Positions 1-59,990 of a stretch of 64,000 nucleotides of DNA are shown one piece after another. Source of the DNA: Phytoseiulus persimilis. Lineage: Eukaryota > Arthropoda > Arachnida > Mesostigmata > Phytoseiidae. The notes beneath the pieces are model-generated. The model made no database searches. It worked only from the letters and a program-made list of their open reading frames with translations, and had not been told where the DNA came from. The position numbers and the translations under genes were made by a program. The stretch spans positions 30,340,723 to 30,404,722 of the forward strand of contig CM075103.1 of assembly GCA_037576195.1 (NCBI GenBank). Direction: 5' to 3'. Every line of letters begins with the position of its first letter. Within the stretch, counting starts at the first letter, position 1.

Positions 1-19
1 GATACTCCAGGCTCCTAAA

Positions 20-970
20 ATGTTTAACCAGAAATTGAGCAACACATTGTTGAGTCTCAATATGGTCGAGTTGACCAGAAGCAAGTTGGACTCTTGCTTG
101 TACTTTCCAAATCCTCCGACTCGAGTTTTTGTTCTGATATACGTTGATGATGGCCTGATAGGCTCCAACGATGAACAAATGAATCAAAGAATAATAAAGG
201 AACTAGAGAAAACCTTTAAACTTACCACGGCGCCGCTCGAGTTTTTATTGGGATTGAGGATTGCGATCTCTCCCGACGGAGGTAGGATCCATTAGGATCA
301 AGCCCAGTATGTTACCGAGCTACTAGATCGTTTCCGGATGTCAGATTGGAACGTGTCTTCTGTACCAATCGACTCAACGTCGAAATCTGCATTTGAAGGA
401 AGAATCGATCTTACTCTGATGTATAGAGAGCTCGAAGGGGTTTTGAGGTTCGTGGCGGTGGGAACTAGAGGATATAGTTCCTACGCTGTTGGACTAAAGT
501 CAAGATACGTAGACAAGCCAACACGCCACCTATGGAACGTCGGTCTAAAAACGTTGAGGTTTCCATCAGAAACCCGGAACCACGGTCCCACGTATACTGG
601 CGGTGCTCACGCCCAGATTGATGCCTGCTGTAATGTGCTTGCAGAAACACTCGGTGCAGTACCAGTGGAGCAGCTCAAATGTTTGGTGGAGCGCCAGTAT
701 GTTGGTCTTCAAGAAGCCAAAGCTGTATAACGCTTCCATCCCATTTGAAAGCAATATCGTGGAATGCATTGAAATGAGTAAGACCTGTTTGGGGCTGAGA
801 AGGCTGTTACAGAAAGTCGGACATCAAATCACTCCGACTCTCCACGTGGACAACACAAGTTGCATCCAACTGTTGACAGAAGCCCAGGAATCTGAACGTT
901 ACAAAACGTTACAATACAGCCATATGATACTTCTGGCTCAAGGAACGGAGAGAAGATGGCATTACAGATA
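20..970 (+). pseudogene. copia A reverse transcriptase and RNase H remnant
   Basis: The stretch encodes the second half of a copia reverse transcriptase, with the polymerase motif YVDD at about 143-154, followed by the connection region (LEFLLGLRI) and RNase H. It aligns piece by piece with copia B (for example FNQKLSNTLLSLN against FNKKLSDTLLSLR). It is spread over more than one frame and is broken. It would have copied the element's RNA inside a cytoplasmic capsid. The N-terminal half of RT, integrase, protease and gag lie outside the window. Confidence 0.85.
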
Positions 971-1321
971 ATGCAGTTCGCTCTCCTCCTGGTAGCGGCA
1001 AAAGCGGCTGCGTCCTCCCAGTGCGAGGATGATTGCCTCCCGCAGTGCAACCGACAGAGACAACCCTGTATGAGATCCGTACTGAACATCGATTATTTCC
1101 CATGCGATTGCTTGATAAGCGATCAAATCTGCATTGAGAGAGCATCTCCTGTTGCGGCTCTCCTGTTGCCAAATGGAACAACATTTGGAGGAGTCGATAT
1201 CTTTATCGAATCCTATAACTATACACATGAGAAACCACCAGCACCTACACCTGTTTCATCAAGTGGAACAAAATTCCTCCAGGTCCACGCAACTGTGATC
1301 ACTACACTTGTTGTGATGTAA
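956..1321 (+). CDS. small secreted or membrane Cys-rich protein of copia A
   Basis: A 121-residue frame opens at the end of RNase H. Residues 1-20 form a signal-peptide-like stretch (MALQIMQFALLLVAAKAAAS), followed by a cysteine-rich domain (C-x3-C-x6-C pattern near residue 24), sequons NGTT and NYTH, and a second hydrophobic stretch at the C-terminus. The ORF at 55922-56263 in copia B is a clear homologue: both contain LPNGTT, a GG-[VE]DI block, YNYTH, and a Pro-rich segment before [KS]FLQ. Conservation between two diverged copies argues that it is real. It may be a type I membrane glycoprotein of the element. I do not recognise the family. Confidence 0.6.
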   Translation: MALQIMQFALLLVAAKAAASSQCEDDCLPQCNRQRQPCMRSVLNIDYFPCDCLISDQICIERASPVAALLLPNGTTFGGVDIFIESYNYTHEKPPAPTPVSSSGTKFLQVHATVITTLVVM

Positions 1322-1354
1322 GTCTGCTCAAAAGGCATAACCTGCTCGATTCAA

Positions 1355-1837
1355 TCAGGGCGGCGTAGACAGTACCAGCGATGGGTGAAATCCTGCCTTC
1401 TGCAGGTTAACACCCGACGGGACCCGAGTCACCACACCAATCCACTGTAGAAGATGAATGAGAGGCTGATATTGAGACTTCCCATTCACAAAATGAATAA
1501 TTGAATCTATGATGATCGGATTTGATCCTAAGCATAAGAACTTCACCAGGTCAGTACTTGATCTCTGAGATTTGGCATGCTCCGAGGGTGATGCGAACTC
1601 TTCGGTCTCATCATACCGGAGCACATGGATCTCAGGCCTCAAAGCAGTAGATCGGTGGACAAACACACATTTCCTGTCCAACACTGACTGGTGAATCCGA
1701 TTGTATTCAAAAGTGATACATTTGTATCTTCTGGTAGAAATGGGAAGGCTCTTAGACCGTACCTCGGTGGTGGTGGTGTAATCAGCCGAAGCGCTAGGTG
1801 GCTGTGTCTGTGACGCTGAGTTCTGTGGTGCCGTCAT
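1355..1837 (-). pseudogene. antisense ORF, C-terminal Cys-containing domain (copia A)
   Basis: This 160-residue minus-strand frame starts in a Ser/Thr/Pro-rich stretch and continues into a block with YKC, YNR, LDRKCVFVHRST and EEFAS. The same block is at the end of the minus-strand ORF 56502-57830 in copia B (YDC, YNR, LDRVCILVRRST, EKFAS). It is convergent to the sense pol and lies only about 30 bp beyond the small sense ORF. The function is unknown. A Ser/Thr-rich stalk before a Cys-containing head would suit an extracellular glycoprotein, but that is inference. The copy is fossil. Confidence 0.5.
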
Positions 1838-2764
1838 CCGATGCCGGAGTGGTGTTGCTGAAGTCTCAGTGGGCTCTCAGAACTGCTCGGCACGGCTGGA
1901 TCAGAAGCTTCAGTTGTGTTTGAAGACAGAGAGAAAGTGCTGGACGGAGGGGCTGAAGTGGTACTCGAGCCGACTGACGCTTCGACTCATCGACGTCCTG
2001 GTCCGGCTCAGTCCCAATAGCAAGAACTCGCACGACCCACTCATGACTGTTGTTGTTGAATGCTGAAGCCACGAATTGGGCTAACGGTCATGACTGGTAC
2101 AAGTTGGGAAACAAATGAGATGTTAAGACCGGCTGAAGTACAGCAGTCTCAAATAATGTAATAGCAGTGAGAAAAGGTTGAAACAAAATGAGTAGGAAAT
2201 CAAAGATTCAGACCAGACATAGTGAGAATCCGTTAAGCGATCTCACCGGCTCTCTAACCTGACAATGACACCGAGGAAAGGGACGAAGGTACTGAGTCAG
2301 GGAGGGTAGATGTCAAAAGAACAATCGGTTTGATCATCGACTGAGACATCCTCGTGATAATCTCGGGCAGATATCCCGTCGTTCTTGAAAGGCTTGGAGT
2401 TCGAGTGAATGACTTTTGAGAAACTGGTCTTTCCGAACTGGAGTGTATGTTATCCCATTCAGACATGAATCTGGAGAAAATCGGGCTCACGTGGAAAGTG
2501 AACGCTCGTGAGTGGCGCGGCCACAAAACATGAAGTACGAGTTGGATTGATATGAACAGGGGTTGTTAATAAGTCCCATTCGGCCGGTGCACTAAACAGC
2601 GGGGTGAGTGATGGTGAGACCACACTCTGGGAAACAGAAGAAGATTTGGGAATTGGTTCAAAAGTAACCTCCCTCGGAACGAACACTGGAGTCGACTCGA
2701 TGAGATAAAATGACTCGTGTTCTGATCATGAAATACATGAATGGCGGGAAGGATGAAAACCTGG

Positions 2765-2968
2765 CTATGCCCTTCCACCGGATGATCGAAGATTGGACAC
2801 TTTGAGCATCAGAAGCACAGCTGCCGATGCAGGTGGATGGAGCCAATCTTGCTTACGACATCCAGGTCCAGAATTGCTTGGAAGCATTCGGACAGAGAAT
2901 CCCGAGACTCCTAAGATGGCAATGGCACTAAGAAAGCCTCCAGTGCACCATAGAAACTTGGAAGCCAT
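2765..2968 (-). pseudogene. antisense ORF, signal-anchor N-terminus (copia A)
   Basis: The minus-strand frame from an ATG at 2968 begins MASKFLW followed by a hydrophobic run (LSAIAILGVSGFSV), as in a signal peptide or signal anchor. Copia B has the matching start at 58008 (MSSRVSWFMWG, then a hydrophobic run ending LGVLGLGVRV). In both copies it lies upstream, on the minus strand, of the Ser/Thr-rich and Cys-containing frame. This suggests both belong to one antisense gene, though I do not assemble it. The stretch 1838-2764 holds only short frames. Confidence 0.45.
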
Positions 2969-3285
2969 GATGAGAGTCAGGACCGGAACCAAAGAATGCT
3001 GATCCGTAGTAATGATCGAAGCATTCCAGGGATCCTCATATTCAAAAGGGAGAGCGCTGATTGCTAATGACACTCTGACCCGAAAAGAAAGGCACCATGA
3101 TCAAATAAGCCAGATCATGTAGTAACACTCGAATAAGAACAACTGCCCAGGAAACAAATGCATTTGGAGTGGAAACAAATTGGCAAAGCTCCCCATGCCC
3201 GCTAGAGGCGGACGGCGACGGACAAGATCAAGTACGTCTACAGTGACGGTAGTATCCGTCTGGACCACATGGATGGGATGCTGCC

Positions 3286-4660
3286 CTAAGACGAACATAC
3301 AACGTATGATGGAACCCCAGAGGGTCCATCGATGAGCAGGCATTCTAATCCCAAGTGGTGGCGGCATTTCCAGCCCATTTCAACACGAGAGTACCAACAT
3401 GCCCTGGCTGAGATTAGTCGGCTTGGAAGAGTTGGACCGATGGTGAGAGTCGTTGTCGATATAGGAGTGGAGCTTTCTTCATCCTCAGAAGACCACTCAG
3501 CAGTGGTTCGGTAGATCTTGAGAACCGAGTGACGGTCAATGGACTGCAGTGGAACTGCGACCAGCAAAGGAACCCCAGTCTCACTTGGAATGATGAACCA
3601 TAAGACTCCTCCTGAAAACAATCAAGACAACTTTAAGACTCACCATCACACAGAAGGAAAAAAAAAGAGAGCTTGATAACCAATACAGGCAAAAGCGGTA
3701 AGAAATCGACTCACCGATAAAAAGCACGGCAAAGATGGCGAGCAGCACCCATTTTCGCTTGGGAAGCATGGCCGCCACTTGGCCAACAAAGGCCTGAATT
3801 AAAGAGAAAACATTGGACTGAACGGGATGATCAAAATCCCGAGCCCTGACATCCTCGACAGACGAGTGGACTCTCGTTTTGGCAGGCTGATCCGAAGAAG
3901 AGCTCACCCTTCCGACAGCCGTTGTCAAAAGAAACCTGGTAGGTTTTGACGATATCAATCTCATGAGAGAGATTGCCAATGCATGTGATGTTGTGTGAGA
4001 AATATGCTCTCATTCCCTGACAAATTGCACCTCGATGTTGGAATTCCAGATCCAATAGATCAGTATATATCTTGATCTTGGATTCGAACGATTTAAACGA
4101 GGCTTCAGGATCCTTGACGTTACCATGTTCCCCTGGAGGTTGGTAACAGTGCTGTTGGATGACACAGCTGTAGCGGACACTTCGGTCGGAGGTTGGTTGA
4201 TTTTCTGTTGAAGTGTGTTCACCTCGAAACGGAGGCTCTGAAGATGACGAGCCTGACCAAATTGATACCATATTACCAGCAAGGTAATCCCGACGTAGAT
4301 CGAGTCCCTGCTGCTCTTCCTTGGCCAAGCGGAGTAAGTTTTTCGGCTCATCTACAGTCCTTCTCATCTGATCAAATGCTACAATGACTTCCTTTACCAC
4401 TGAGGTTTGGACCACAGACTTCGCGAACAGAGTGAGCTGTGCCAAGAGCTTAGCATCGTTGTCAGCAAATTTCCCCTGCTGAACGCTCAACCGCTGAACG
4501 GTGTCGAATAATTCCCAAACAAGTTGGAATCCTGCGGTACAACTGAGTGAGTCTTCTCGACACAAAGCTAGACACATCACTGTGCACATCACTCAAAATT
4601 AGACCCATGAGCAGCTTCCGGTAGTTTGCGGCAAGCTGGGATTCCTGAACATTCACCACG
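3286..4660 (-). pseudogene. antisense coiled-coil/transmembrane gene region (copia A)
   Basis: Minus-strand frames in this interval encode a helical, heptad-like region (for example VQRLSVQQGKFADNDAKLL), then a transmembrane segment WVLLAIFAVLFI near 3710-3750, and further on the frame 3286-3621. Copia B has the homologue at 59211-59990 (VKQLARRIDTIDENFSKLM and LVFFAVFFMI). In both copies the hydrophobic segment runs directly into a GTGAGT hexamer matching a splice donor, so introns are likely. The region is a fossil with several breaks. A long coiled coil next to a membrane segment recalls fusion or adhesion proteins, but no family is recognised. Confidence 0.5.
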
Positions 4661-4700
4661 ACCAGACTCCCATCAGAAACTCGACCGCTGTTGGTAGGAG

Positions 4701-5868
4701 CTACCTCAGCGCTGGTTCGATGAACCAGTTCTTTCTTCTTGTCTGCTGTTGCGAGAGATGAAAGATACGATACCTTTGGTGGTATGACAAAGTCTGGATG
4801 GGGACTGTGTCCTCGAAGGACAACAACAGGAATGAGCTAGAACATCTAGGATGATGAGTTCCTTGACCCCCACAGGAGTCAGAAAAGAAAAAGGAAAGCA
4901 ATTCAAGCTAAACAGGAAAGATCAAATTTGCTGTGGAAGAAAGCAAGTTCTTGAACAAACTCAAGTGTGACGATCAAATGCGCTTCCGAAGCAATGCAAC
5001 TCAGAAAGCTAGATCGCGAGAAAGTTCCAAAGGTCCTTCTTTAGAAGAGACCTCTTCAAGAAAAAAAAAAAGGGACTAATGACACGCGAACAACATATCG
5101 TTGGGAATCACAGTCGAAGTTGGACACAAAGACTGAATGGATACCCCAAAGCCGAGTTCGTGTCTGATCCCTAATTGGAATCGTATGCACGCCAAGAAGC
5201 TGAAGAGCGCTTGGATGCGTGGGAGCTAAATGGAGATCTTCCTGGTTGTCGATAGGAAGAGAAATCGCCCCGGAGGAGAGAACTTCAAAAGCTATGGATA
5301 GCGCCTCCCCTTGACTGGACGGTCACACGGGTCGGATCAACTCCCTCGCCACGCTTGGGATTCACTTGCCATCTCAGAACAACAGAAACCATCAACGGTT
5401 CATAGTGTTGTTCAGACCCCAGAAAAAGTACTAACAAGTTTCACGTGAACAACGTAAGAATGGAACCTCAGCAAAGCTGAAACAAGGTGAAAGTGAACTA
5501 AACCAGAGCACTCGAGGTTTTCCCATACACGGCAAGGTGCTAAACCAATAATAAGGAAGGACCTTGAGAGACGACAAGCACAGGATGGCGACAATCGTCT
5601 CAGGATCCCTGCTGTCGCACCTCAGGTCAAATGAGTTCAAACAGTTTAACGAGAACTATTACGATGTGTTTATGTAGCAGTCGGGCAACCCCGACCTGTA
5701 CCAAACGGTGAGAAAGAACCCTGGTACACCTGGGAGTTCCACAGAACATTGTGTACTAATAACTCCACTAACTGCATGGGAAAGTTGAGTCCAAATTTGA
5801 CCGAAGCCTGTGAATTATCACTGATTGCAAACATGATCATCTGGTTGTAAAAAGAGACTGTTTCATCT
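4701..5868. other. copia A internal region without a recognisable gene
   Basis: Only short frames occur here. Position suggests promoter or 5' untranslated sequence of the antisense gene, and the 3' untranslated part of the sense element. An A-rich run lies at about 5060-5075. Nothing else stands out. Confidence 0.4.
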
Positions 5869-5877
5869 AAGGGAGGG
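5869..5877 (+). other. polypurine tract of copia A
   Basis: AAGGGAGGG lies directly against the TG that opens the LTR at 5878. This is the usual plus-strand primer site of LTR elements. It fixes the element's orientation as plus and shows that the minus-strand ORFs lie inside the element. Confidence 0.75.
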
Positions 5878-6180
5878 TGTTGAGAAATATCGTTACACTT
5901 CAGTATCTGAAACATGTCTCAACTACTCACACCCGTAACGGGGACAAGGACAAGCCCTGTGCGTGATTACGCCACCGGGCTTAGACACTTAGATTTGGCC
6001 GCGGTCAGCTCACGCTTTCCCGCCAAGTATAAATACTGCAATAAAGAAGTTTCGCTCTTGAGGAGCTACGCATTCCCTAACCGGAACTCTGTCTGTTTAT
6101 TTCGTGCCGTGATCTTCCAGCTTCCAGAGAACTTCCAGATCGGTGTCTACCGACTGACTTCAGGGAACGAATATCCAACA
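5878..6180 (+). repeat. 3' LTR of copia A
   Basis: This 303-bp sequence starts TGTTGAGAAATATC and ends ATATCCAACA. It shares its beginning (TGTTGA, AATATC, GTATCTGAAACA) and its end (TTTATTTCGTGCCGTGATCT, TAC/CACCGACTGA, AAxxTCCAACA) with the 357-bp LTRs at 46424-46780 and 51028-51384. The middle differs, so the two belong to separate subfamilies. The sequence TATAAATA is at about 6028. Confidence 0.85.
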
Positions 6181-8155
6181 GGAAGTAATGCTCAGATTGG
6201 TCTCGGCATCACCCTTCCAGAGTTGGGAAGTAATGCTCAGATTGGTCTCGGAATCACCCCTCCAGAGTTGGGAAGTAATGCTCAGATTGGTCTCGGAATC
6301 ACCCCTCCAGAGTTTGGAAGTAATGCTCAGATTGGTCTCGGAATCACCCCTCCAGAGTTGGGAAGTAATGCTCAGATTGATCTCGGAATCACCCCTCCAG
6401 AGTTGGGAAGTAATGCTCAGATTGGTCTCGGAATCACCCCTCCAGAGTTGGGAAGTAATGCTCAGATTGGTCTCGGAATCACCCCTCCAGAGTTGGGAAG
6501 TAATGCTCAGATTGGTCTCGGAATCATTCCTCCAGAGTTGAGAAGTAATGCTCAGATTGATCTCGGAATCACCCCTCCAGAGTTGGGAAATAATGCTCAG
6601 ATTGGTCTCGGAATCACCCCTCCAGAGTTGGGAAGTAATGCTCAGATTGGTCTCGGAATCACCCCTCCAGAGTTGAGAAGTAATGCTCAGATTGCTCACG
6701 GAATCACCCCTCCAGAGTTGAGAAGTAATGCTCAGATTGGTCTCGGAATCACCCCTCCAGAGTTGGGAAATAATGCTCAGATTGGTCTCGGAATCACCCC
6801 TCCAGAGTTGAGAAGTAATGCTCAGATTGCTCTCGGAATCACCCCTCCAAAGTTGTGAAGTAATGCTCAGATTGGTCTTGGAATCACCCCTCCAGAGTTG
6901 TGAAGTAATGCTCAGATTGGTCTTGGAATCACCCCTCCAGAGTTGAGAAGTAATGCTCAGATTGGTCTCGGAATCACCCCTCCAGAGTTGAGAAGTGATG
7001 CTCAGATTGGTCTCGGAATCACCCCTCCAGAGTTGAGAAGTAATGCTCAGATTGGTCTCGGAATCACCCCTCCAGAGTTGGAAAGTAATGCTCAGATTGG
7101 TCTCGGAATCACCCCTCCAGAGTTGGGAAGCAATGCTCAGAGTGGTCTCGGAATCACCCCTCCAGAGTTGGGAAGTAATGCTCAGATTGGTCTCGGAATC
7201 ACCCCTCCAGAGTTGGGAAGTAATGCTCAGATTGGTCTCGGAATCATTCCTCCAGAGTTGAGAAGTAATGCTCAGATTGATCTCGGAATCACCCCTCCAG
7301 AGTTGGGAAATAATGCTCAGATTGGTCTCGGAATCACCCCTCCAGAGTTGGGAAGTAATGCTCAGAGTGGTCTCGGAATCACCCCTCCAGAGTTGGGAAG
7401 TAATGCTCAGATTGGTCTCGGAATCACCCCTCCAGAGATGGAAAGTAATGCTCAGATTGGTCTCGGCATCACCCCTCCAAAGTTGTGAAGTAATGCTCAG
7501 ATTGGTCTTGGAATCACCGCTCCAGAGTTGAGAAGTAATGCTCAGATTGGTCTCGGAATCACCCCTCCAGAGTTGGGAAATAATGCTCAGATTGGTCTCG
7601 GAATCACCCCTCCAGAGTTGGGAAGTAATGCTCAGATTGGTCTCGGAATCACCCCTCCAGAGTTGAGAAGTAATGCTCAGATTGCTCTCGGAATCACCCC
7701 TCCAGAGTTGAGAAGTAATGCTCAGATTGCTCTCGGAATCACCCCTCCAGAGTTGAGAAGTAATGCTCAGATTGCTCTCGGAATCACCCCTCCAGAGTTG
7801 AGAAGTAATGCTCAGATTGCTCTCGGAATCACCCCTCCAGAGTTGTGAAGTAATGCTCAGATTGGTCTTGGAATCACCCCTCCAGAGTTGTGAAGTAATG
7901 CTCAGATTGGTCTTGGAATCACCCCTCCAGAGTTGAGAAGTAATGCTCGGATTGGTCTCGGAATCACCCCTCCAGAGTTGAGAAGTAATGCTCAGATTGG
8001 TCTCGGAATCACCCCTCCAGAGTTGGGAAATAATGCTCAGATTGGTCGCGGAATCACCCCTCCAGAGTTGGAAAGTAATGCTCAGATTGGTCTCGGAATC
8101 ACCCCTCCAGAGTTGGAAAGTAATGCTCAGATTGGTCTTGGAATCACCCCTCCAC
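6181..8155. repeat. 45-bp minisatellite, about 44 units
   Basis: The unit, of the form GGAAGTAATGCTCAGATTGG followed by TCTCGGAATCACCCCTCCAG and AGTTG, is 45 bp and repeats without spacers. Because 45 is divisible by three, long frames stay open on both strands: GSNAQIGLGITPPEL on plus, with occasional stops, and RGDSETNLSITSQLW on minus, unbroken for 722 residues from 8328 to 6160. The array abuts the LTR end at 6180. The same unit recurs at 10061-10255 inside another element. Coding is not needed to explain the frames. Confidence 0.95.
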
Positions 8156-8367
8156 GTTTTGAAAAGTATGGTCAGATCGGTTCTAGAATCACCCCTCCAG
8201 CTTTTGAAAAGTATAGTCAGACTCGTACCGGAATCACCTCTCCAGACTCGGGAGAGTATGTTCAGATTGGTCCCGGAATCACCTTCATGTCTTCCAGAAA
8301 AAGTGCGGACGAACTGACAAACTGACAAACTGACAGACTAAGCCGATTATATATAGTAAGGATTTCG
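8156..8367. repeat. diverged edge units and inverted-repeat terminus of the minisatellite element
   Basis: Three or four diverged units (AAGTATGGTCAG, GAATCACC) are followed by GTGCGGACGAACTGACAAAC and a terminus CTAAGCCGATTATATATAGT-AAGGATT. The same terminus ends the minisatellite element at 10298, and its inverted copy opens that element at 9938. Edge decay of repeat units and shared ends indicate a TIR element whose interior expanded. The left end would be upstream, beyond the copia insertion. Confidence 0.65.
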
Positions 8368-11069: not shown

Positions 11070-12800
11070 TCAAATTTGGTTGACGATGAACGTTTGAGCT
11101 GGGTCAGTTCCTGGTAGTTCGTCGCTACTTACTGGGAGTCGCGAAAGGGCGTCTGCATTTGAGTTTCCTTCCGACGGTCGGTACTTGATGGTGAAGTTGA
11201 ATCCCATCAGGTAGATCGCGTAATGTTGCATCCGTATTGCCGACAGAGGGGGGAGATTTTTATCGGGTGAGAAAATCTGGACCAAGGGACGCGAATCCGT
11301 GATCAGGCGGAAACGGCGTCCAAACAGGTAATGGAAGAATTTTTCCACGCCTGTTTTGATCGCAAGTGCCTCTCCGTCGAGTTGGCAGTATTTTCTCTCC
11401 GTTGACGTCAATGTTCTGCAGTAGAAGGCAATGGGTTTTTCACCCTGGTTATCGTAGTCATGTGATAGTACCGCAGAAATTCCCATCGGAGACGCGTCTG
11501 TTGCAAGCACCACTTGCTTTTTAGGATTGAACGGAACTGAAACCCTTTCTGAGCACAGTTCGTCTTTCACACTGTTGAAAGAAGCATCAGTTTCAGCTGT
11601 CCAGTCGAACGGGACGTCGCTCCTCAACAAATCGCACAACGGTGCGGCGAGGTCCGCGAGGCGTTGAGCGAACGGCGCGTAAAACTGGATGAGTCCAAGG
11701 AAAGCTCGAAGCTCTGAAATGTTTCTCGGAATCGATGCTCTGCGGATGGCGTCCACCTTGTCTGTGCATTTTCTGATTTCGCCGCGCTTGAGGTTGAACC
11801 CACAGAACCTGACGCTGTCCTGGAAGTAAACACACTTTTCTCGATTCAGCCGGATGTCATGTTGGTCCAGTGTGCGAAGGACGCTTTCGAGACGTTGAAG
11901 ATGTTGCTCGTCGTTAACTCCGGAGATGATGATGTCGTCTATGACGCACTCGACGCCGGGGATTCCCCCGAGAATTCCCTCGATGAATCGCTGCCAAACG
12001 GCAGGTGCATTGCACAGGCCGTTCGACATTCGCAGGAATTTGAAGAGGCCACGATGCGTATTCACCACAACGTATTTCTGATCGGACTCTCGTACAGGCA
12101 TATGTAGAAACGCATTTGATATATCCAATTTCGAAAAACTCCCACCGTTTCCGATGTTATCCAGAGCATGCCGTATATTCTTGAGCGGGTGCTCGTCGAT
12201 TCGTATGTATCGGTTGATGCCTGTCTTGAAATCCCCGCAGATTCGCACTTTCCTTCCCTGGGCACGCGGAACCACGACAATTGGGTGAGCCCAGTCAGAC
12301 CCGGGAATCTTCTCAATGACTCGCTGTTCCTCTAGAAAAGTGGGTTCCCGGTCCGTTAATTCAAGCATGGAGTGAGCAACTGGCCTCGCTCTGGCGTATG
12401 TGATTTGAGGGGTGTCGGTGTTCAGCTCCAGCCGTGCTTCTGCATTGGGTATGCAACCGATACCTGGTTTCGTAAGGTTCGGGTATTTCTTGCGAAGATT
12501 TTCGGCTGCAACCTTGTAATATGAAGTCTGCAGTTGATAGCATCGATTTGATGATTCAAACGTTAGCAGAGAATTTATATCTATAGGGAGTGCTCGTAGC
12601 CATGCCCTTCCAATCAACGTGGGGAAAACTTGGTTTTGGATCAAGTACAAGCGAAGATTAGCATTGCTGCCTTTGTACGATACATGAACATCCGCAGATG
12701 AATGGGGTTGAAATTGTTCACCTGTTGCTGATCTGAGTTGAATATCGTTATTTTTCAACTTCTGATGAGGCAGAATTCTTTTGAATTCATCAAGCTTCAT
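11070..12800 (-). CDS. gypsy pol: protease end, reverse transcriptase, RNase H (fossil)
   Basis: The 576-residue frame begins with the end of an aspartic protease domain (FPTLIGRAWLRAL). Reverse transcriptase follows at about residues 150-340 (KLDISNAFLHMPV, LCNAPAVWQRF, VIDDIIISG), then RNase H at about 420-540 (ATDASPMGISAVL, LDGEALAI, LITDSRPLV). It copies the element's RNA to DNA. It lies between gag upstream and integrase downstream on the minus strand, as expected for Ty3/gypsy. Confidence 0.9.
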   Translation of the reverse strand: MKLDEFKRILPHQKLKNNDIQLRSATGEQFQPHSSADVHVSYKGSNANLRLYLIQNQVFPTLIGRAWLRALPIDINSLLTFESSNRCYQLQTSYYKVAAENLRKKYPNLTKPGIGCIPNAEARLELNTDTPQITYARARPVAHSMLELTDREPTFLEEQRVIEKIPGSDWAHPIVVVPRAQGRKVRICGDFKTGINRYIRIDEHPLKNIRHALDNIGNGGSFSKLDISNAFLHMPVRESDQKYVVVNTHRGLFKFLRMSNGLCNAPAVWQRFIEGILGGIPGVECVIDDIIISGVNDEQHLQRLESVLRTLDQHDIRLNREKCVYFQDSVRFCGFNLKRGEIRKCTDKVDAIRRASIPRNISELRAFLGLIQFYAPFAQRLADLAAPLCDLLRSDVPFDWTAETDASFNSVKDELCSERVSVPFNPKKQVVLATDASPMGISAVLSHDYDNQGEKPIAFYCRTLTSTERKYCQLDGEALAIKTGVEKFFHYLFGRRFRLITDSRPLVQIFSPDKNLPPLSAIRMQHYAIYLMGFNFTIKYRPSEGNSNADALSRLPVSSDELPGTDPAQTFIVNQI

Positions 12801-12986
12801 TGTGCTGATTTATGTTCCGGTGTCAATTTCCATGGGGACGTCGTGTCCAGCAATCGAAACGGTTGTGTAAATCGGCGTCTTGGGTCCGTTTCGGTGCAGT
12901 TGATGCTGCTCCAGGAAGTTGTGCCGCAACTGTGTTTTTCGACAGACTGCTTGAAGATGATCGACGTATCCGCACGCACTGCAGGT

Positions 12987-45134: not shown

Positions 45135-45545
45135 GACTGACTCCGGAACCTCTCGCGGCCGTGACAGTGTCGGCGCGTTGAGCCTCGGAATAGCAACTCA
45201 ACGAACTGGACTCGCCTTGGTAATGAAATCCAGCCGCCTGGGGTGGTTGCACTTGAAGCACTGCCGCTGGACACTGAATGCGGGTTGCGCGCGTGAGGGA
45301 CGCCCTCGCTGACGCAGCACTTTTGAAGTTGTCGGAACCTGGATATTTCCCCGAAATATCCGCTGCGAGTCTCACGTAGGACTGTGAGGACTCCTCGATA
45401 GCTGATTGCCCTCTTCGGCCGTCTGGATGAACTGAATAATGCGACGAACTCTGTCCGAGGTCACGCCGTCTGACTCGGCGGATCTGGAATCCTGGTTGAC
45501 GCTTCTTCTTGAGACTGGCTGGGGTCGCTTAACTCGCTGCCACCA

Positions 45546-45838: not shown

Positions 45839-45869
45839 GACCCTAACCTATCTCGAACCGGTGGCGGCT

Positions 45870-45926
45870 CCTATAAAATGCCAGGACCCCGCAGTGGAGC
45901 CGTTTTCGTTCGTTAACGCTTCAGGA
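45870..45926 (+). promoter_or_regulatory. TATA-type promoter candidate in the duplicated flank
   Basis: CTATAAAATG at 45872 lies about 50 bp before an ATG (45926) that opens a short frame (MKSFPHFNQDFSSSQ). Unit 2 has the same sequence at about 50475-50530. The downstream product is unknown, and the frame is not equally open in both copies. Confidence 0.35.
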
Positions 45927-46103
45927 TGAAATCTTTCCCGCACTTCAATCAGGATTTCTCTTCGTCGCAAACCTACAATAAGCATTCTGTCAATATGGAC
46001 CCTGTGTCCATGTTCACTCCGGCGAACGACGGAAACTTGGGTGGTTCCGAGTGGGGGTTCAGGTCAGCTTACCATCTACAGTCCTATAAACCGCTGAGAA
46101 TCT

Positions 46104-46780: not shown

Positions 46781-46869
46781 TTCGTTATTGCGCACGACGA
46801 ACCTACGGACACGACGTCTCGGAAAGTACATTGTGAAAGTGTGTGACTCTCTAGTGTGGTGTCTCATCA

Positions 46870-49344: not shown

Positions 49345-49402
49345 GGGGCAGGCTCGGCCGACCATGCCTCGTGTAGTTATACGACCTCTCAGACTAGCCA
49401 AC

Positions 49403-51027: not shown

Positions 51028-51384
51028 TGTTGAAATATCACTCTGTTTCTGGTATCTGAAACACGTCTTAGTTCAGACGATCATCTTAGTGTATACAGGG
51101 ACGGTAATACAGTACCGTGGGCGACAAGCCCTTACTGGGAGATACAGTACAGCAGTATCTAAGAATTGTGAGTAACTCTGAGCCGAAGGCCCTCCGCCTT
51201 CGGCTCATGCAAACCCACACTCTCGTTTGGGTACACATACACACAATAAAGGCAAGGCCCAATAGGAGTTGAGTAAGAGTAACAGACCCCTGTCTCTTTA
51301 TTTCGTGCCGTGATCTTTCAGACCACAGACTGTACTTCCAGATTGAGTGTCCACCGACTGAGCACAGTGGACTAAAATCCAACA
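51028..51384 (+). repeat. copia B 5' LTR
   Basis: It is 357 bp and differs from the unit 1 copy by a few substitutions. Confidence 0.9.
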
Positions 51385-51473
51385 TTCGTTATTGCGCACG
51401 ACGAACCTACGGACACGACGTCTCGGAAAGTACATTGTGAAAGTGTGTGACTCTCTAGTGTGGTGTCTCATCA

Positions 51474-53948
51474 GTGCACGCTCTAACATCGAAGATGGAC
51501 CCAATGGAGAGTCCCCGAGTACCGGAAGATTCCACCAGCTCCCACGGCTATAGTGACTTAGGTGACGACATGCGAGGACCCTCAAGAAGATACACTGACG
51601 GCCTGAAAGAAGACAACAAGGAGGATGTAGGCTTCAACGCACTCGACATCGGGACAAAACACCGAGAACTCGTCGTTCTGAAACTTGATGGCTCGAATTT
51701 TACAGCATGGAAAGTAATGATTTACGCAGCGTTGGATGCAGACCCGTATGCCCTCGATGTAACCACCGGGAAGCTGATTCCACCTCCACCGGGAACAGAC
51801 CCCAAGGAGGCGGCCATACAACAACAGAAGTATGAGGCAGGAGACCGAGCGGGAAGGTGTACCCTATTTGCATCAATCCAAACGGCCCTGGCGGTCTCCC
51901 TTTTCTCCGACGACGCAGCTGTCATCGAAGCCACTGAAATGTGGAGACTGATTACTGAGAAGTTAAAAGCTACCAGCGGAGGACTGAAACAGTTGGCCCT
52001 CACCAAACTCATGGGCTACAAATATCAGCAAAACAAATCAGCCGGAGACAACCTGTTCCGTTTCAAACAGATTACGGGACACAACGAGACACTAGGGATA
52101 AAGGTCCCACAGGACATGAGGATCACCATACTTCTGGCCAGCCTTCCGTCATCATGGGAACCTTTCAAACAAGCGTTCACAGCCAGGGAGGACTCAGCAA
52201 AATTTCTGACTCATCTCATGGCAGCCATCGAGAGCGAAGCCCTCCGACGTGGCAACCACGACGTAAATGAGGTAACGGCTTCGTTCTCCAAGCTCCATAC
52301 TTTCTATGGAAGACGACGCCGGAACACCTACCATCGGAAGACCAGCGTCAATAGGACCACCACGAGCACCACCGAGAGGACCTGTTACAACTGTGGACAA
52401 TCAAGTCATCTGATTGCTCAGTGTCGGGCTCCTCGACAGAACAAGAACCCAGGACAGGCTCAACGACAAACAACTCGCTCCAGAGCCAACCAGGGTGGAC
52501 GACGACCATTCAACCGCCGACAAAAACAAGGGCAGGCAAGTGCCAACCACACCCTAGTGCGTGCCATCGAAGCCCTCAACTGCGAGATAGCGGTGGTAGA
52601 ATCACACTCTGTCACCATCGACAACCAATATCTCGTTGATAGCGGATCCAACTTTCATATGACCCACAGCAGGGATAATATGATCAACTACACGCCCTAC
52701 TCTCAGCCACGGGAGATCAGACTAGGCGGTTCCAGGACCCTAAGCTCACCAGGCTACGGAACTGTTGGTGTTGGTCTCATGGTGAATGGAACTCCATGCA
52801 CCATACTGCTGAAGGAGGTGCTGTACGTTCCAAGGCTACGCAACAACCTCCTGTCGGCTTCCAAACTCGCGGATGACGGTTTTGACATCAGTATCAAACC
52901 TGAGAAGATCATCATCTCCCGCGACGGTCACAGCATTTTTGCCAAGCGCAAAAATGGTCTCTACATCATCTCCGCAACCTACATCGCGGAGGGAAACCGG
53001 GCCGAAGATAGAAAGAAGGTCAGCCTACTCGAAGTTCACCGAAATTTTGCCCACATCAACGTAGGATGGCTCAAGCCAATGTTAGAGAGAGGAGGCCATG
53101 GAGTGAACTCTGATGGAGGTTCTGAATTCAAGAACAGCACAGTACAGTCACTCCTGAGGTCGACAGGTTGTGACCATTCGTATTCGGCACCGAGAACCCC
53201 GCAGCATAATTCGATTTCGGAAAGATTAAATCGAACGTTGCCAAACCTCGCCAGAACTATGATCATTGACAGTGAGTTACAAAAGCCTGTTTGGGCTGAG
53301 GCTGTGAATTTCGCGACGCACTGCCTCAACATCACGAAGTTCAATGATCTGGTTGGTGAAACTCAATTTGAGATGATCACGGGCGAGAAACCATACATCA
53401 AACGCACTCGAAGATTTGGCACAAGATGTTGCTTTTACAACATCCAACCAACAAAGGACCAGCTAGATCAACGAGCATTCGCTGGAGCAATTGTTGGCAT
53501 CGATGTAGACGGACTAAGCTACAGAGTCCTTGAATTAGGGACAAGGAACATCCGTCGGATCCGTGACATCATAGTGAAGGAACCCTCACCTATACCTGAA
53601 GGCGCTAACAAACTCCCACTACTACCGGAAGTGCCAGGATCATCAGACATCAACAAACCTTTGCAGTCCAGAGAAGAAAGTGATCCCACATTAGAAGATC
53701 TCAGCGAACCAACACCCGAAGACTCAAACGATTCAGGCACTGCAGAAGATGAAGAATGGAGCGGAGAAAGGAATGTGGATGAAGAATTAGGGGTAGCTGT
53801 TGATCATGAATCCAGCCACCCCTCTCCGCCTGCCACAAGTCCGCGCGGACACGCCAAGAGGAATCTTGTACCGGCAAGGATGGACAAAGTCGAGGGACGC
53901 AAGTATAATTTACTTGATTGGAGTACTCTTAAGAAGCCGGCTCGCTAA
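51474..53948 (+). pseudogene. copia B gag-protease-integrase frame
   Basis: It has 824 residues and the same domains as the frame at 46870-49344, from which it differs at roughly ten residues, showing how recent the duplication is. It is broken relative to the family norm. Confidence 0.85.
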
Positions 53949-54189: not shown

Positions 54190-54432
54190 CCGGCTGAACC
54201 TCTCAGCCAGCCCTCAGGAGTGTCCCGGAATCACATTAAGTATTGCTTCAGTAACACTCCCTATCGCCTCGCAAATCCCATCGCGGGCGGTGGGCTTGGG
54301 TCTTAAGATGGTTCAGATTCCATTCTGATATGAATTAAATCCTCTTTTACCACATAAGAAATTTCTGTCCCGCGATTGCTATTATAGCTTAGCGTGGCAC
54401 CCAGTGTTGGTTTATGCCACCCGGCCAGCGAG
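54190..54432 (-). mobile_element. SINE, minus orientation, in copia B
   Basis: The minus-strand copy is nearly full length, with a short loss around the B-box region. It sits about 25 bp from the oppositely oriented SINE, so a transcript through both could fold into a long hairpin. Confidence 0.8.
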
Positions 54433-55920
54433 CGGGGAGATGAATGGTTAGCAGCGATGGCTTTGGAACTAGAATCGTTCCGATCCAACCAGGCTCATAA
54501 GCTGGTTGAGCCGGCTCCAGGACAGCATGTCCTGTCGAACCGATGGGTGTTCACCTTGAAGGCTGACAAGGATGGGAACATCATCAAAAGAAAGGCGAGA
54601 CTTGTGGTTCGTGGCTGTGCCCAGCGACCAGGTCTCGACTACGAGAGTTTTTTCAGCCCTGTAGCTAGATTTGAAACGATAAGACTCGTACTCTCAGTAG
54701 CAGCCAGGGAACATCTCTTTCTCACTCAGGCAGATGTCTGCACCGCATTCCTCTCAGCTCCTCTGGACAGGAAACTCTACATGCGGCAGCCAGCCGGCTC
54801 TGAGGACGGTAGCAAAAGAGTTTGTGAGCTTTTGAAAGCGGTCTACGGGACCGTCCAAGCTCCTAAATGCTTCAATAAGAAATTGAGCGACACTCTGCTT
54901 AGTTTGAGGACAATAAAATTGGAAAGAAGCAAGCAGGATCCATGCCTGTACTTCCCAAATCCCCCTCGAAGAGTTTTCATCCTAATCTATGTGAATGACT
55001 GCCTGATTGGTTCACATGACGAACAACTGACCAAGGCAATACTCAAAGAACTCCAGAAAACATCCGAACTCACGTTCAAGCCTCTGGAATTCCTCTTGGG
55101 ACTGAGAGTCAACATCTCACCAGACCGAGGGAGGATTCAAATCAATCAAGCCCAATACATAGCTGAGATTCTAGAACGTTTCAAAATGACTGACTGTAAG
55201 GTGTCACCCATCCCAATTGATGCTACATCTTAGTCAGCATTTGAGGGAGAAATAGACTTGAATCTGAAGTATCGAGAGCTTGTGGGGGCCTTGATGTTTG
55301 CCTCTATAGCAAGCCGCGGAGATATCCGCTATGCGGTCGGTTTCATTTCAAGATATTTGGACAAGCCAACAAGTCATCTTTGGAATACCGGTTTGAAAGG
55401 ATTACGATACCTTTCCGGTACAAGAAACTTTGGTCCAACGTATCTTGGTGAAACCCACGGCCGACTCGACGCATACTGCGATGCGGACTGGGCAGGTTGC
55501 AAAACAACGCGTAGGAGTACAAGCGGCTCAGCCATTCTTTTTGGCGGAGCAATGGTAATTTGGTCATCACAACGCCAAAGTTGTGTAACCCTCAGTAGCA
55601 TGGAGAGTGAAATAGTCGCGTGCAGTGGAATGGCAAAGTCTTGCCTCTGGTTTACCAGACTACTCCATGAAGTCGGATAACCTGTGAAGCCCGTATTGCA
55701 CATCGACAACATTGGTTGTATCCAGCTCTTCACTGAAGCCCAGGTAACAAAACGGTCAAAGCACATTGAGGCTAGGCATTTTTGACTCAAGGAGAAGATA
55801 GAGGACGGTGATTTCAAAATAGAACATTGCCCTTCTGACGAAAATATATCTGATCTTGGTACGAAGGCCCTGGCAGAAACTCACTTCGTTCGTTTACGAT
55901 CCTTAGCTGGCATTCTGAAT
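54433..55920 (+). pseudogene. copia B reverse transcriptase and RNase H
   Basis: Starts in the RT N-terminal region (EWLAAMALELESF, NRWVFTLKADKDG, RKARLVVRGCAQ) and continues through LTQADVCTAFLSAPLD and LKAVYGTVQAP to the connection and RNase H (YCDADWAGCKTTRRSTSG, LSSMESEIVA). It is broken. The preceding integrase portion lies beyond the SINE pair. Confidence 0.9.
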
Positions 55921-55921
55921 C

Positions 55922-56263
55922 ATGCTACAGATACACGTCATCGGTATTCTCCTGCTGGCGGCAACGACCGTCGCGTTCTCCCAGTACGGCACTGATTGTT
56001 TGCCGTGGTGTATCCAACAGAAAATACCATGCATGATATCCGAACTGAGCCCAGTCCATTTCCCGATCGACTGTTTCGATTCAACGGCCACCTGTATAGA
56101 GAGTGCATCACAAACAGTGGCCTGTCTACTACCAAACGGAACAACTGTTGGTGGTGAAGATATTTGGATAGCATACTACAATTACACTCATCCGATACCA
56201 CCGGCACCTGTTCCACACAACGGAACGAGTTTCCTCCAGATCTACGCGGCAGTCGTAACGTAA
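55922..56263 (+). CDS. small secreted or membrane Cys-rich protein of copia B
   Basis: The frame has 113 residues. A signal peptide spans residues 1-20 (MLQIHVIGILLLAATTVAFS). It is followed by cysteines (CLPWC, PCM, DC, TC, AC) and sequons NGTT, NYTH and NGTS. A hydrophobic stretch and a basic Cys/Arg-rich segment follow just downstream. Homologous to 956-1321 in copia A. It sits directly after RNase H in both elements, the place where accessory or env-like genes of LTR elements lie. Fossil. Confidence 0.6.
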   Translation: MLQIHVIGILLLAATTVAFSQYGTDCLPWCIQQKIPCMISELSPVHFPIDCFDSTATCIESASQTVACLLPNGTTVGGEDIWIAYYNYTHPIPPAPVPHNGTSFLQIYAAVVT

Positions 56264-56501
56264 CAACACTATTGCTTGTTTACGGCACAACGTGCTGCAT
56301 CCGATGCATGCTCCAAACATGGCGTCGGAGACGCTACCAACAACTCAGTCAGAACGAGGTCTCCTCCTCTCACCCCGGCATGGCGGCAGCCACCGGCTCG
56401 CCATATCAACCCACGGTAGATGAGGCATAGCTGAACTCACTCTGCACATCCGACGAATTTCACCAATAAAGATTCCTTCTAAACAACATAAAATTTATTC
56501 C

Positions 56502-57830
56502 TTAAGCGGTCAATTTCATGTAGTTCCCGCAAGATTGATTAAACATCTCATGCTCCATGGCAGAAGCGAATTTCTCAATTCCACTGTATGGTTGGACGGA
56601 GATTACACTTGTCAAAGGTGTCGATCTCCTAACCAGTATACAGACTCTGTCAAGAATCGAAATAAATGACCGATTATAGTGAATCTTTTTACAATCATAC
56701 CTAGCACCGGGAATCGGAAAATCTATTGGTGCGATAGTCGTGGGTAGAAGAGAGGTTGTGGTTGAGGAGGATCTGCCCTCTGTACTGGACCTCATCTGCG
56801 AGTCCTCAGTGCTCAAAGCACTAGTTGTTGATTTGTGGGTGACGGGACTGGTCGACGAGGCCATGGTCAAAGGCCGTGAAGTTGTTGTTCCCAGTGCGGT
56901 CTTCACGGCTTTTGGAGTTGAGGATGGTCGCCGAGTGGTTTTGGTAGTTGTAGCTTTACTCACACTTGAATTCGAAACTACCGGCCTCGAATCCAAAGCT
57001 ACCAGCTCGAACTCTACCTCTCTCAGATCACTTCTCTCCGTGGTCCTAGCTACAATGGCCCCGGGACTCGAGAGAAACCCAGCGCTAACGGACTGGACCA
57101 CACTGGGAGCAATCGAATCTGATGAGGGAGTCCAACTCGAGTTAGTCCTAGAGGACGCCACGATCGATGTCAGTCGATTGAAATTGGTGCTCTTGAGGAT
57201 AGGAGACGACGAGGCGGGAGATAGAACGGAAAACGAGCGTAGAGATGACGAAGAAAAGGACGGGAACACGAGTGTCGACTCAGGACTAAGATTGGCCACT
57301 GACCGAGTCGAATAATCTCGATCCCATCCTCGCGACGTCGGTATAGAAGTGACCAACGGGATGGAGTGGCTAGCCTGAAGAGCAACAAACCGCGAACGAA
57401 AAGCTCGGCGAGAAAGAAGCGCTGCAGACTGTTGATCCAGAAAAGCTAATCGGGACCTTCTACGGTGACTTTCTGGCATATTCCATTCTGACCGTGCGCG
57501 ATCCCTTGCTGATCGTAACAACTCAGGCTCGGTTGTCCTTCTTGACACGGATTCTGAGGGAAGACTGACCTTCAGGGTACGTGTCGGGGCAATAAGTTCA
57601 TGGTATACAAATTCACTGATTTCTGTTGTGATACCCGGAGAAGGTGAGAAAAGAACAGTCGAAGGACGACCGTGCTCTGTTGATATCTCTTGCCACTGTG
57701 GACTCATGGTCTCAGCCACTGATGAGCTCCAGTGAAACTGACATGAGCATGGTGATTCTGAGTTTGATGTAGATGAATATCCTATCTGGTCATTCGGACT
57801 AATAACTCCCAAACTTGGAGTAGAAAGCAA
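56502..57830 (-). CDS. antisense Ser/Thr-rich protein with Cys-containing C-terminus (copia B)
   Basis: The 442-residue minus-strand frame is dominated by Ser, Thr and Val from residue 1 to about 370, mucin-like (TTTKTTRRPSSTPKAV, SSTTTSLLPTTIAP). It ends in a conserved block YDC, YNRSFISILDRVCILVRR, PYSGIEKFAS shared with 1355-1837 of copia A. A signal-anchor start lies just upstream at 58008. It may be a glycosylated surface protein. No family is recognised. Plus-strand frames here (56740-57315) are shadows. Confidence 0.55.
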   Translation of the reverse strand: MLSTPSLGVISPNDQIGYSSTSNSESPCSCQFHWSSSVAETMSPQWQEISTEHGRPSTVLFSPSPGITTEISEFVYHELIAPTRTLKVSLPSESVSRRTTEPELLRSARDRARSEWNMPESHRRRSRLAFLDQQSAALLSRRAFRSRFVALQASHSIPLVTSIPTSRGWDRDYSTRSVANLSPESTLVFPSFSSSSLRSFSVLSPASSSPILKSTNFNRLTSIVASSRTNSSWTPSSDSIAPSVVQSVSAGFLSSPGAIVARTTERSDLREVEFELVALDSRPVVSNSSVSKATTTKTTRRPSSTPKAVKTALGTTTSRPLTMASSTSPVTHKSTTSALSTEDSQMRSSTEGRSSSTTTSLLPTTIAPIDFPIPGARYDCKKIHYNRSFISILDRVCILVRRSTPLTSVISVQPYSGIEKFASAMEHEMFNQSCGNYMKLTA

Positions 57831-58008
57831 GCAACATATCCTTTGAAGAACGGACTGGATGGCTGTTAGAGACGTGTGGTAAAGATGTGTGGGAAAAATA
57901 AGTGTCCTGAAGTGTTGAAGCTATTACTCGCACACCTAGCCCCAAAACACCAAGGGCTGCACATAACATCACGAATCCCCACATAAACCATGATACTCGG
58001 GAACTCAA
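57799..58008 (-). pseudogene. antisense signal-anchor N-terminus (copia B)
   Basis: MSSRVSWFMWGFVMLCAAL and LGVLGLGVRVIA form a signal anchor or signal peptide. The homologue in copia A begins at 2968. It is followed on minus by the Ser/Thr-rich frame. Confidence 0.45.
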
Positions 58009-58805
58009 TGTTCACTGTCTGATAAACATGAACGAAGTGATCCAATAACGGTTCGACTCAAACACCTTCAGCGAGCCAAAGGAAAGGAGCTTGATGAGGG
58101 AATGCACCGAAGAAGAATATCAAGAAACCACAAGCCAGCTAGTCTGTATCCATTGGAATATGTTTATAATCAATAACAGCCCAAGGCTGAAAGTTCACAC
58201 CAATGACGGCATCGGATGAAAGGGACACAAACACCGATGTTGGCCGTCTGAATGGAAAAGAAAAAGGAAAACGGTTGAGAATAACCGAAGTGCTGAATCA
58301 ATCAGAGGAGGAAGGAGAAAAGCTGTTTCTTCTCCTTTAGTTTGCCTTTGGGAAACGATTGCACCTGTGAACGTGTCCATTGGCAGGACACAATTTCGAT
58401 GTTACGATACTGTGGCAGACTGCCATGCTTGACAGTGGCTATGGACCAGCGATCAACAGACACCGGTTATCGTCCTTGTTGTGACAGAGCCACTTGTGTC
58501 CCACACGACGACACGAGTAGCTGAGAAGACCGAATCTGGATCGGTCTGGATCAAGCTGTTTGACAACAACCGCATATCGAATACGAGGGAACTCTCACCG
58601 GTGTACTCTCTGATATTCAATGATACCGTAATCGAGATCAAAGGAAAACGATCGCCCTCACCGCGCTGCCAGCTGCGTGCGATTCGGATGACTTCAACGC
58701 TAAGAGTCCGATCGGGAGGAACTTCCTTGGTCGCAAGCGGAGTTTGGCTCTCGACTTCGCTTGCTTTGTTGAATGTTCCTTCCTCCCTCTTTAGAGGAAC
58801 TCATA

Positions 58806-59990
58806 CTAGTGGGCGGTCGTCGATGTGCAAAGAGGTAGACAGGTTGAGTCATGGGGCTGGCTCAAGATCCTGTGCAAACGGCACGAGATCATCGCATAGG
58901 TATGAGGAGCGGTTCTCTCATCAAGGTCCATCGGTTGCTCGGCGAATTCGACCGGCCTTGGTCGAATTCGCCGGACTGGGTGTGGTCGTCGGAGGCTCTG
59001 GGATGTCATCATCATCCTCCGGAAGTGTCGCAGAATGCGAGACTTTCCTCCGATCAGTTGTTGAAACTGGAGGCAGTTCCAGGGTCGAAGATCTTCGTGT
59101 TGAGGCGGCGTAAATGAATAGTCCACCAGAAGCTGAAACAGAAGCCTAAATGATCAAGTGCCCGGTTCTATTAAATCGGTAGAGGCTAAATTTTTCTCTT
59201 TCCTGCCCAGCTACTCACTGATCATGAAGAACACGGCGAAGAACACCAAGGTCTTCCAGTTCAACACGGACGATGCCAGCCTCCTGAGACGAGTCTTTGG
59301 GGCCCGAGGATCGCTTGAATCTTCTGCCATGATCTGCTCGGCAGTAAGCTGGAATCGGGTTTCCGCTGGCGAATTAGAGCCAGCAAGTGAACCTTGAAAT
59401 ACCGAATCATGAATGAGGACAGAATGTTCCCGATCCCCTGGAAGTTCTTCCACCTCCAGGGTCAAGGTACCGATGGCGGTCGACTTCCGGACTGATTGAC
59501 TCCTCAGCTCCCGGACAATGGTCTCCAGATTGATTATCCGGAGATTGTCCTGGTCAGAGTTCTGCTTCATTGTCGATGAGGGCAGCAGGGCTCCATTGAT
59601 GGAGCCCTGCTGCTCTTCAACTCGGTCTTGAAAGTCGGCCAGAGAATCAACAACCTGCTTCATCGGAATCTGCGGAGTCACATACTTCGCGGAGGCATTG
59701 AGCTGAACCATGAGCTTGGAGAAATTCTCATCAATCGTGTCAATGCGACGTGCCAGTTGTTTCACTGTGTCACAGACACCAGTGAGCTGTCCCGGGTTCT
59801 CAGTTAGAGACACCATTTCGGTCCGATAGAACTCGAGATTTCTCTCGACTCTGCGAACCTGATCCATGGTTACCTTACAGACACTGCCCGCAAAGGCGGC
59901 TTCTTGTAGGGAAACGGTGACCAGACTTGAGTCAGGTTTCGGAACAACCTCCGAGGCTGTACCGACACAGGCCATCTCCTGATCTATCAT
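58806..59990 (-). CDS. antisense coiled-coil/transmembrane protein (copia B)
   Basis: Frame 59990-59211 has 259 residues. A coiled coil spans about 55-180 (VKQLARRIDTIDENFSKLM, QVVDSLADFQDRVEEQQ, LETIVRELRSQ). Residues 240-256 are a transmembrane segment (LVFFAVFFMI). The frame then meets GTGAGT, a splice-donor match, as in copia A. The homologue is at 3286-4660. Downstream (59130-58806) are Thr/Pro-rich frames. It may be an envelope-like or adhesion protein, but no fusion peptide is evident. Confidence 0.5.

Follow-up and report, generated by a model that had tools for sequence, protein, structure and literature searches.

Copia elements of Phytoseiulus persimilis with sense and antisense membrane-protein genes between pol and the 3' long terminal repeat, a candidate envelope-like set

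Copia elements are usually viewed as intracellular, carrying gag and pol only. SIRE-1, a copia element of soybean, reportedly carries an envelope-like open reading frame (ORF); its host is a plant, that one extra ORF is in sense, and antisense genes are not known from it. The envelope genes of errantiviruses and of BEL/Pao elements, the latter being a group of animal elements, are in sense orientation, as is that of human T-cell leukaemia virus (HTLV), in which HBZ, a spliced antisense gene, encodes a nuclear regulator. Among plant elements, Grande and RIRE2 belong to Ty3/gypsy. As far as the accessible text of the cited papers goes, antisense ORFs between pol and the 3' long terminal repeat (LTR) are described for the plant elements Retand, Grande, RIRE2 and PvRetro13 (PMC11963269, PMC7264820). 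Retand is a Ty3/gypsy element whose antisense product has a TRP28 domain predicted to bind DNA, and the same partial text reports that no sense ORF with a transmembrane (TM) segment was found in it (PMC11963269). For Grande, an antisense promoter is reported and the antisense protein is nuclear (PMC7264820, PMC11963269), and an antisense promoter also lies in the 3' LTR of HTLV (PMC7264820). The LTR elements of bdelloid rotifers have a captured ORF3 after pol with TM segments, cysteines or a coiled coil, one clade having a paramyxovirus-type fusion protein (PMC5408684), and insect gypsy elements (errantiviruses) and BEL/Pao elements carry envelope genes (PMC13172572). Here, a stretch of 64,000 nucleotides (the window) from the 181-Mb genome of the mite Phytoseiulus persimilis (C3:30340723-30404722) was analysed, with emphasis on two copia elements, copia A and copia B, and on their relatives in the same genome. 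A previous sequence-only reading of positions 1321-5877, inside copia A, had proposed a stable lineage of copia elements in which antisense genes, probably spliced, encode envelope- or adhesion-like proteins.

Like the four plant elements, as these are described in the available text, the copia elements studied here have conserved antisense coding in the interval between pol and the 3' LTR, kept across many copies. Unlike in the Retand-type elements, the reverse transcriptase (RT) is RVT_2, of copia type and not Ty3/gypsy, and the antisense products are membrane proteins accompanied by an apparent intron and a sense membrane gene. No TRP28 domain occurs among the Pfam matches listed (one listing giving 25 of 36 families). 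The combination of a copia-type element with an extra envelope-like gene is shared with SIRE-1, and extra ORFs after pol in animal LTR elements are shared with bdelloid rotifers; that likeness is by description only, and the part of the report seen describes no antisense gene set (PMC5408684). Errantiviruses and BEL/Pao elements are likewise arthropod LTR elements carrying envelope genes, although they belong to other element classes and, in the source as far as available, have viral-type fusion glycoproteins. HBZ is also an antisense gene of a retroelement, but differs in being a nuclear regulator. The titles and abstract openings of the literature searched showed no copia element that carries membrane genes in antisense. 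Hence the copia module can be described as an LTR retrotransposon with extra genes, in an arrangement not found in the families and the parts of the literature covered. Between pol and the 3' LTR, these copia elements probably carry membrane-protein genes that form an ambisense, envelope-like set.

In order, the module consists of ORF-S in sense right after pol, antisense gene 2 and antisense gene 1. ORF-S, which starts at the end of pol, encodes a predicted type I membrane protein of 164-172 aa (three relatives in other public data included); its ectodomain has conserved cysteines and is followed by a TM segment and a tail. The tail has YxxPhi and PY motifs in all nine sequences examined, and a further copy, L010, has PC for PY. 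One ORF-S sequence per lineage was examined for lineages B, C, D, E, F and H (labels assigned within this analysis), and all six have a TM segment and at least one N-x-S/T motif, in keeping with a glycoprotein-like product that spans the membrane. Gene 2 has a TM segment near the N-terminus (signal anchor), a Ser/Thr-rich stalk and a C-terminal Cys domain; its length is 502 aa in lineage B and 536 aa in lineage D, with 30% S+T in both, and the Cys domain is 39-47% identical between lineages. Gene 1 has a coiled-coil-like part, 23-28% identical between lineages, then a TM segment and a Cys-rich end, of which six cysteines are invariant in a five-row alignment (A3). The first part is called coiled-coil-like for its appearance and for weak Pfam matches to coiled-coil families. 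The Cys ends of genes 1 and 2 are weakly alike (hhalign P 3.6e-4, probability 37%, 45 columns), which would fit a duplication; a profile comparison of ORF-S with gene 2 gave no match. The antisense genes are damaged in copia A and copia B, and same-genome relatives of lineages B, C, D and E have long open frames. In copia A, the minus-strand remnants reported earlier between pol and the polypurine tract and LTR were all located, i.e. the coiled-coil-like part with the TM segment, the signal-anchor start and the Cys ends, the Cys-containing end of gene 2 lying at 1358-1876 (-). The homologous genes reported for copia B were confirmed as well, and its gene 2 (56505-58008) and gene 1 (58342-59990) agree in order and strand with those of copia A. 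The description of the gene set as antisense applies to two genes, but the set also includes ORF-S, a sense gene that had not been listed.

Splicing, which had been called probable, agrees with the copies read. A GT-AG phase-1 gap of 78-131 bp lies within or beside the TM segment of gene 1 in 7/7 copies from six lineages (two from C and one each from B, D, E, F and H), and after the gap the second exon, with the cysteines, is open in the matching frame in every one. The splice sites were picked by eye before the frame check, so the agreement in frame counts as support and not as a blind test. Intron-like sites in gene 2 were seen in lineages C and H, and lineages B and D have a single open exon. 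Antisense splicing is considered very likely. The antisense splice sites would be non-functional on the sense genomic RNA. The introns would then survive reverse transcription because the genomic RNA is the sense strand, from which they cannot be spliced out, as the orientation of the splice sites implies.

In the proposed mechanism, genes 2 and 1 would be transcribed in antisense, with gene 1 being spliced, and the promoter would probably lie near the 3' LTR. The three proteins would most likely act together at the membrane as an envelope-like complex. ORF-S would contribute a small type I protein whose tail holds a sorting signal, and genes 1 and 2 would encode type II proteins with their Cys-rich ends facing outward, the coiled-coil-like part of gene 1 reaching inward, perhaps to Gag. 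A surface location is suggested by the membrane segments, the glycosylation motifs and the rapid evolution of the Cys-rich ends. In function, the closest analogue might be an envelope with type II attachment-type proteins, which are known from paramyxoviruses. The case for an envelope-like role of the set appears evenly balanced. The main competitor is that the membrane proteins are real but intracellular or regulatory, functioning in particle assembly at host membranes, in copy-number control or in interference with competing elements and not in cell entry. This is rather unlikely in our view, although it would fit the lack of envelope homology among the matches listed and the small size and constant tail of ORF-S, and antisense ORFs of plants have been proposed to be regulatory in the text available (PMC7264820, PMC11963269). 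On the other hand, the Cys-rich ends, the N-glycosylation motifs of ORF-S and the stalk of gene 2 suit an outward-facing role, and the plant antisense proteins are, as far as described there, nuclear or predicted to bind DNA, whereas those of the copia elements have TM segments.

The envelope-like reading can be taken further, more tentatively, to an ancient animal copia clade with a complete ambisense envelope (one sense type I and two related, spliced antisense type II glycoproteins), whose members would be enveloped retrovirus-like agents in which introns persist through antisense placement. ORF-S likely occurs beyond the source species: three relatives (P0001-P0003) were found in other public data (sources lgn and ena), 44-46% identical to the lineage-C sequence. 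No ORF-S relatives were found in viral and prokaryote contigs. In a large protein set, no homologs were found for gene 1 (best 8000 candidates by shared words scored) or for the Cys domain of gene 2 (41 candidates); both negatives are weak evidence, as such a search depends on exact words in common and those of coiled coils are widespread. If the envelope-like reading is true, a clade of copia elements in which selection maintains one sense membrane gene, often along with one or two antisense ones, would represent a separate route to an envelope-like set, and the orientation of the genes would explain the survival of introns in a retroelement. The module also offers concrete sequences for asking whether animal copia particles move between cells.

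Next, selection on the reading frames was considered, as the ratio of nonsynonymous to synonymous substitution rates (dN/dS). For exon 1 of gene 1, the lineage-C pair L065/L066, the most informative one, has a dS of 0.70, a dN of 0.075 and a dN/dS of 0.11, with 45, 20 and 124 differences at codon positions 1, 2 and 3. The gene 1 frame of this pair has 0 stops, against 14-22 in each of the other five frames; one opposite-strand frame also has a low ratio of 0.20, yet it holds 22 stops. The ratio for exon 1 is 0.13 in L074/L075, 0.35 in L076 versus copia B of the window, and 0.25-0.44, near saturation, in the pairs with L073 that have finite dS. For exon 2, values of 0.22-0.45 were obtained within lineage C and 0.34 within lineage D. 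Gene 2 gave 0.17-0.35 in seven of the eight pairs with finite dS, two of them (both from D) resting on 2 and 6 differences, and in 6/7 within-lineage pairs; between lineages, dS was finite in the C-B comparison alone (3.1), with a ratio of 0.25. For ORF-S, dN/dS is 0.14-0.33 between lineages B, C, D and E (finite dS), 0.15-0.30 within C and 0.55 in the B pair. Purifying selection acts on gene 1 in its antisense frame, and ORF-S, gene 1 and gene 2 are almost certainly real genes. As a separate observation, exon 1 of gene 1 in L065/L066 has a dS of 0.70 versus 0.13 for exon 2, which suggests recombination between lineages.

These values bear on the possibility that the antisense RNA alone matters, by silencing or dampening the sense RNA, with the frames as by-products. 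The convergence of ORF-S and gene 2, with approximately 80 bp between their stop codons in lineage C (L016), would allow the transcripts to pair with the sense RNA, and antisense non-coding transcripts are known in other retrotransposons according to the text seen (PMC7264820). However, the excess of third-position changes, the low dN/dS and the lack of stops in the L065/L066 frame, together with cysteines conserved between lineages at 25-47% identity, make this very improbable, and it is largely refuted by the codon analysis.

The linkage of the membrane genes to the element was examined in the whole genome. At least 150 matches to ORF-S were found (150 of 207 candidates scored, so that all ORF-S counts are lower bounds), and gene 1 gave 56 matches with the copia A query and 51 with that of copia B, whereas the end of gene 2, with a D-lineage query, gave 59. 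After joining split matches, 147 ORF-S loci were left, and after dropping second pieces and overlapping rows, 65/107 rows were kept for gene 1 of A and B, 33/41 for gene 1 of H, 42/44 for gene 1 of F and 57/59 for gene 2. An antisense match on the opposite strand lies within 6.5 kb downstream of 95/147 ORF-S loci, compared to 11/147 on the pol side, so the concern that most copies might lack the module is not borne out; matches downstream on the same strand numbered 0, 1, 1 and 0 for the four query sets. The median distance from ORF-S is 2,891 bp for gene 1 of A and B, 1,716 bp for gene 1 of H, 1,635 bp for gene 1 of F and 240 bp for gene 2. Conversely, an ORF-S partner from the scored candidates accompanies 45/65, 25/33, 19/42 and 48/57 of the antisense matches, respectively. 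The proposed tie to LTR elements therefore holds for three of the four sets, in which most matches have a partner, and falls short for the F set, in which under half do. With the gene 1 queries alone, 42 of the best 76 of 150 ORF-S matches have a partner within 9 kb.

The claim of a stable lineage is supported, as antisense genes were read, besides copia A, in six lineages, B, C, D, E, H and F, the last with one recognised antisense gene. In an RT tree of 17 of 23 rows (the other six lacking an open segment of 150 aa, and A and H not being among the 23), lineages B, C, D and F form clades, and E is a single row. The lineage-C element at C3:33992200-34002925 has LTRs identical at 345/345 positions, a polypurine tract and the 5-bp target-site duplication GGAAC. 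The 5' LTR of copia A lies outside the window (C3:30337541-30337843) and is identical to its 3' LTR in 303/303 bases; the whole minus-strand module lies between the LTRs of an apparently young insertion. From the identical LTRs in both elements it follows that the module moves with the element. The antisense genes could otherwise be a host gene or a second mobile element inserted beside copia by chance, for which one might point to a gene-1-like copy that adjoins a host gene and shows no further parts of the element over 4.7 kb, and to the 20/65 gene 1 and 23/42 F-type gene 1 matches that have no ORF-S partner. But order and strand are constant and spacing is similar across several lineages, inside LTRs with a target-site duplication; such a chance neighbour is highly improbable in general and is refuted for the elements of which both LTRs were read (copia A and the lineage-C element), with the module between identical LTRs. 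The gene-1-like copy in question, L084 (C2:47294900-47299600), has TM and Cys exons and adjoins what by eye is an apparent rhomboid protease gene of the host; neither pol nor ORF-S was seen within its 4.7 kb, and it looks like a truncated or solo copy.

Compared with lineage C, pol, gene 1 and gene 2 of copia A are disrupted over several frames, and because of this copia A, a decayed copy, is probably non-autonomous and carried by other elements. As the example chosen by the sequence-only reading, it does contain the module, but the copy itself is decayed and probably non-autonomous. Its LTR is 90% shared with lineage C, and the copies of copia A that were compared match L041 at 94.7-99.8% over most stretches, with the exceptions of L060 and L064 at 86%. 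The interruption of the ORFs in copia A and copia B of the window would fit chance frames in a decayed element, a reading that is practically negligible and refuted by the open frames of relatives and the codon analysis, in line with purifying selection and conserved intron-like sites. A sense-only envelope is ruled out by the antisense gene 1 and gene 2 frames and the apparent introns in relatives.

Several results nevertheless weigh against copia elements with an ambisense envelope-like set. The three proteins have no homology to a known envelope among the Pfam and solved-structure matches listed; weak Pfam matches to viral envelope models (E 0.012 and 0.015) do not reach the curated cut-offs, nor do the copies share them. 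The ORF-S model has a mean predicted local distance difference test score (pLDDT) of 37.9. The model of the gene 2 Cys domain from the window, mostly strands with one helix, has a mean pLDDT of 54.2, and this low-confidence model gave no match in PDB at E <= 0.001 (best E 1.6). In a simple scan of nine sequences, a basic cleavage motif was absent from the ORF-S ectodomain, the sole two RRRR matches being in tails. Hydropathy, at the cut-off applied, revealed neither an N-terminal hydrophobic segment in the ORF-S sequences of C, D, E, P0002 and P0003 nor a TM segment in the unspliced exon of gene 1 from lineage C, where the segment is split by the intron. Higher dN/dS values were obtained for exon 2 of gene 1 in between-lineage pairs with finite dS (0.42-0.69), for gene 2 of copia B in the window versus L081 (0.70) and for ORF-S pairs within D (0.28-1.77, with few differences). 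No antisense match accompanies 52/147 ORF-S loci, 21 of the 52 belonging, as read here, to a group of short matches with at least one stop each. The family is not uniform: gene 1 of lineage H (L083) is short, without the long coiled-coil-like part, and in lineage F (L003, L078) a single antisense gene was recognised, with a TM segment and a Cys-rich exon, besides a 328-aa sense ORF that looks like a coiled coil. Finally, copia A spreads although its module is broken.

The features of both elements are listed in Table 1.

Table 1. Coordinates of the parts of copia A and copia B, as positions of the window.
Feature	Position	Strand	Remark
Copia A pol end (RT + RNase H)	2..968	+	split across three frames relative to lineage C
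Copia A ORF-S, type I membrane protein	956..1318	+	shortened: 121 aa vs 164-172 aa in longer relatives
Copia A gene 2 remnant	1358..3073	-	Cys domain 1535-1807; stalk in pieces up to 2608; by eye, signal-anchor start within 2765-3073
Copia A gene 1 Cys-rich exon 2 remnant	3289..3621	-	assigned by eye vs L066; no tblastn match at 1e-3
Copia A gene 1 coiled-coil-like + TM exon	3584..4743	-	frameshifted
Copia A polypurine tract	5869..5877	+
Copia A 3' LTR	5878..6180	+	directly after polypurine tract
Copia B 5' LTR	51028..51384	+	second copy 46424-46780 within tandem duplication
Copia B gag to integrase	51459..53945	+	Pfam on near-identical copy 46855-49341 (98.9% identity)
Copia B RT (RVT_2, 1e-50) + RNase H	54388..55677	+
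Copia B ORF-S	55922..56427	+	frame change near 56260
Copia B gene 2	56505..58008	-	472-aa open part; N-terminal piece lies in a different frame
Copia B gene 1 exon 2	58342..59132	-	insert of ~370 nt near 58573-58943 compared with L076
Copia B gene 1 exon 1 (coiled-coil-like, TM)	59220..59990	-	~320 nt shorter than L076

A 45-bp satellite forms oppositely oriented arrays on the two sides of copia A, whose flanks showed no target-site duplication. The satellite is found at 6181-8330 of the window and around 10 kb, and also 3' of an H-lineage element and within L010; the lineage-C element is flanked by similar repeats. The loci concerned outside the window are L069, L070, L072, L083 and L010. The elements may favour this satellite as a target. 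A megablast comparison of copia A pol with phages gave no match.

A tandem duplication of 3.7 kb (45839-49586 and 50443-54189, 99.5% identical) spans the LTR and the gag-integrase part of copia B. The Pfam order on 46855-49341 is Retrotran_gag_2, Pol_BBD, rve (0.002, below the cut-off) and SH3_retrovirus, and it is the copy at 51459-53945 that precedes the RT. The RT match itself lies at 54388-55230 (PF07727, E 1e-50), and a search of the own genome with RT gave at least 150 matches (150 of 443 candidates scored). With the 5' LTR of copia B as the query, no 3' LTR was found within the window. L076, used for comparison with copia B, is a nested or rearranged element: its positions 1-483 hold a copia gag fragment, 60% identical to copia B gag, upstream of gene 1 and on the same strand as gene 1. 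In lineage F, the 328-aa sense ORF is located at 525-1508 of L078, after ORF-S, with no Pfam match above the cut-off, and positions 3526-5995 (-) of L078 hold another copia fragment, in reverse, where a separate ORF-S-like frame begins. Besides the copia elements, the window carries, all on the minus strand, a BEL/Pao element with a 1872-aa open frame (39582-45197), a long interspersed nuclear element with endonuclease and RT (18859-22170) and a gypsy-type RT (11073-12809), and it also contains Tc5-type sequences.

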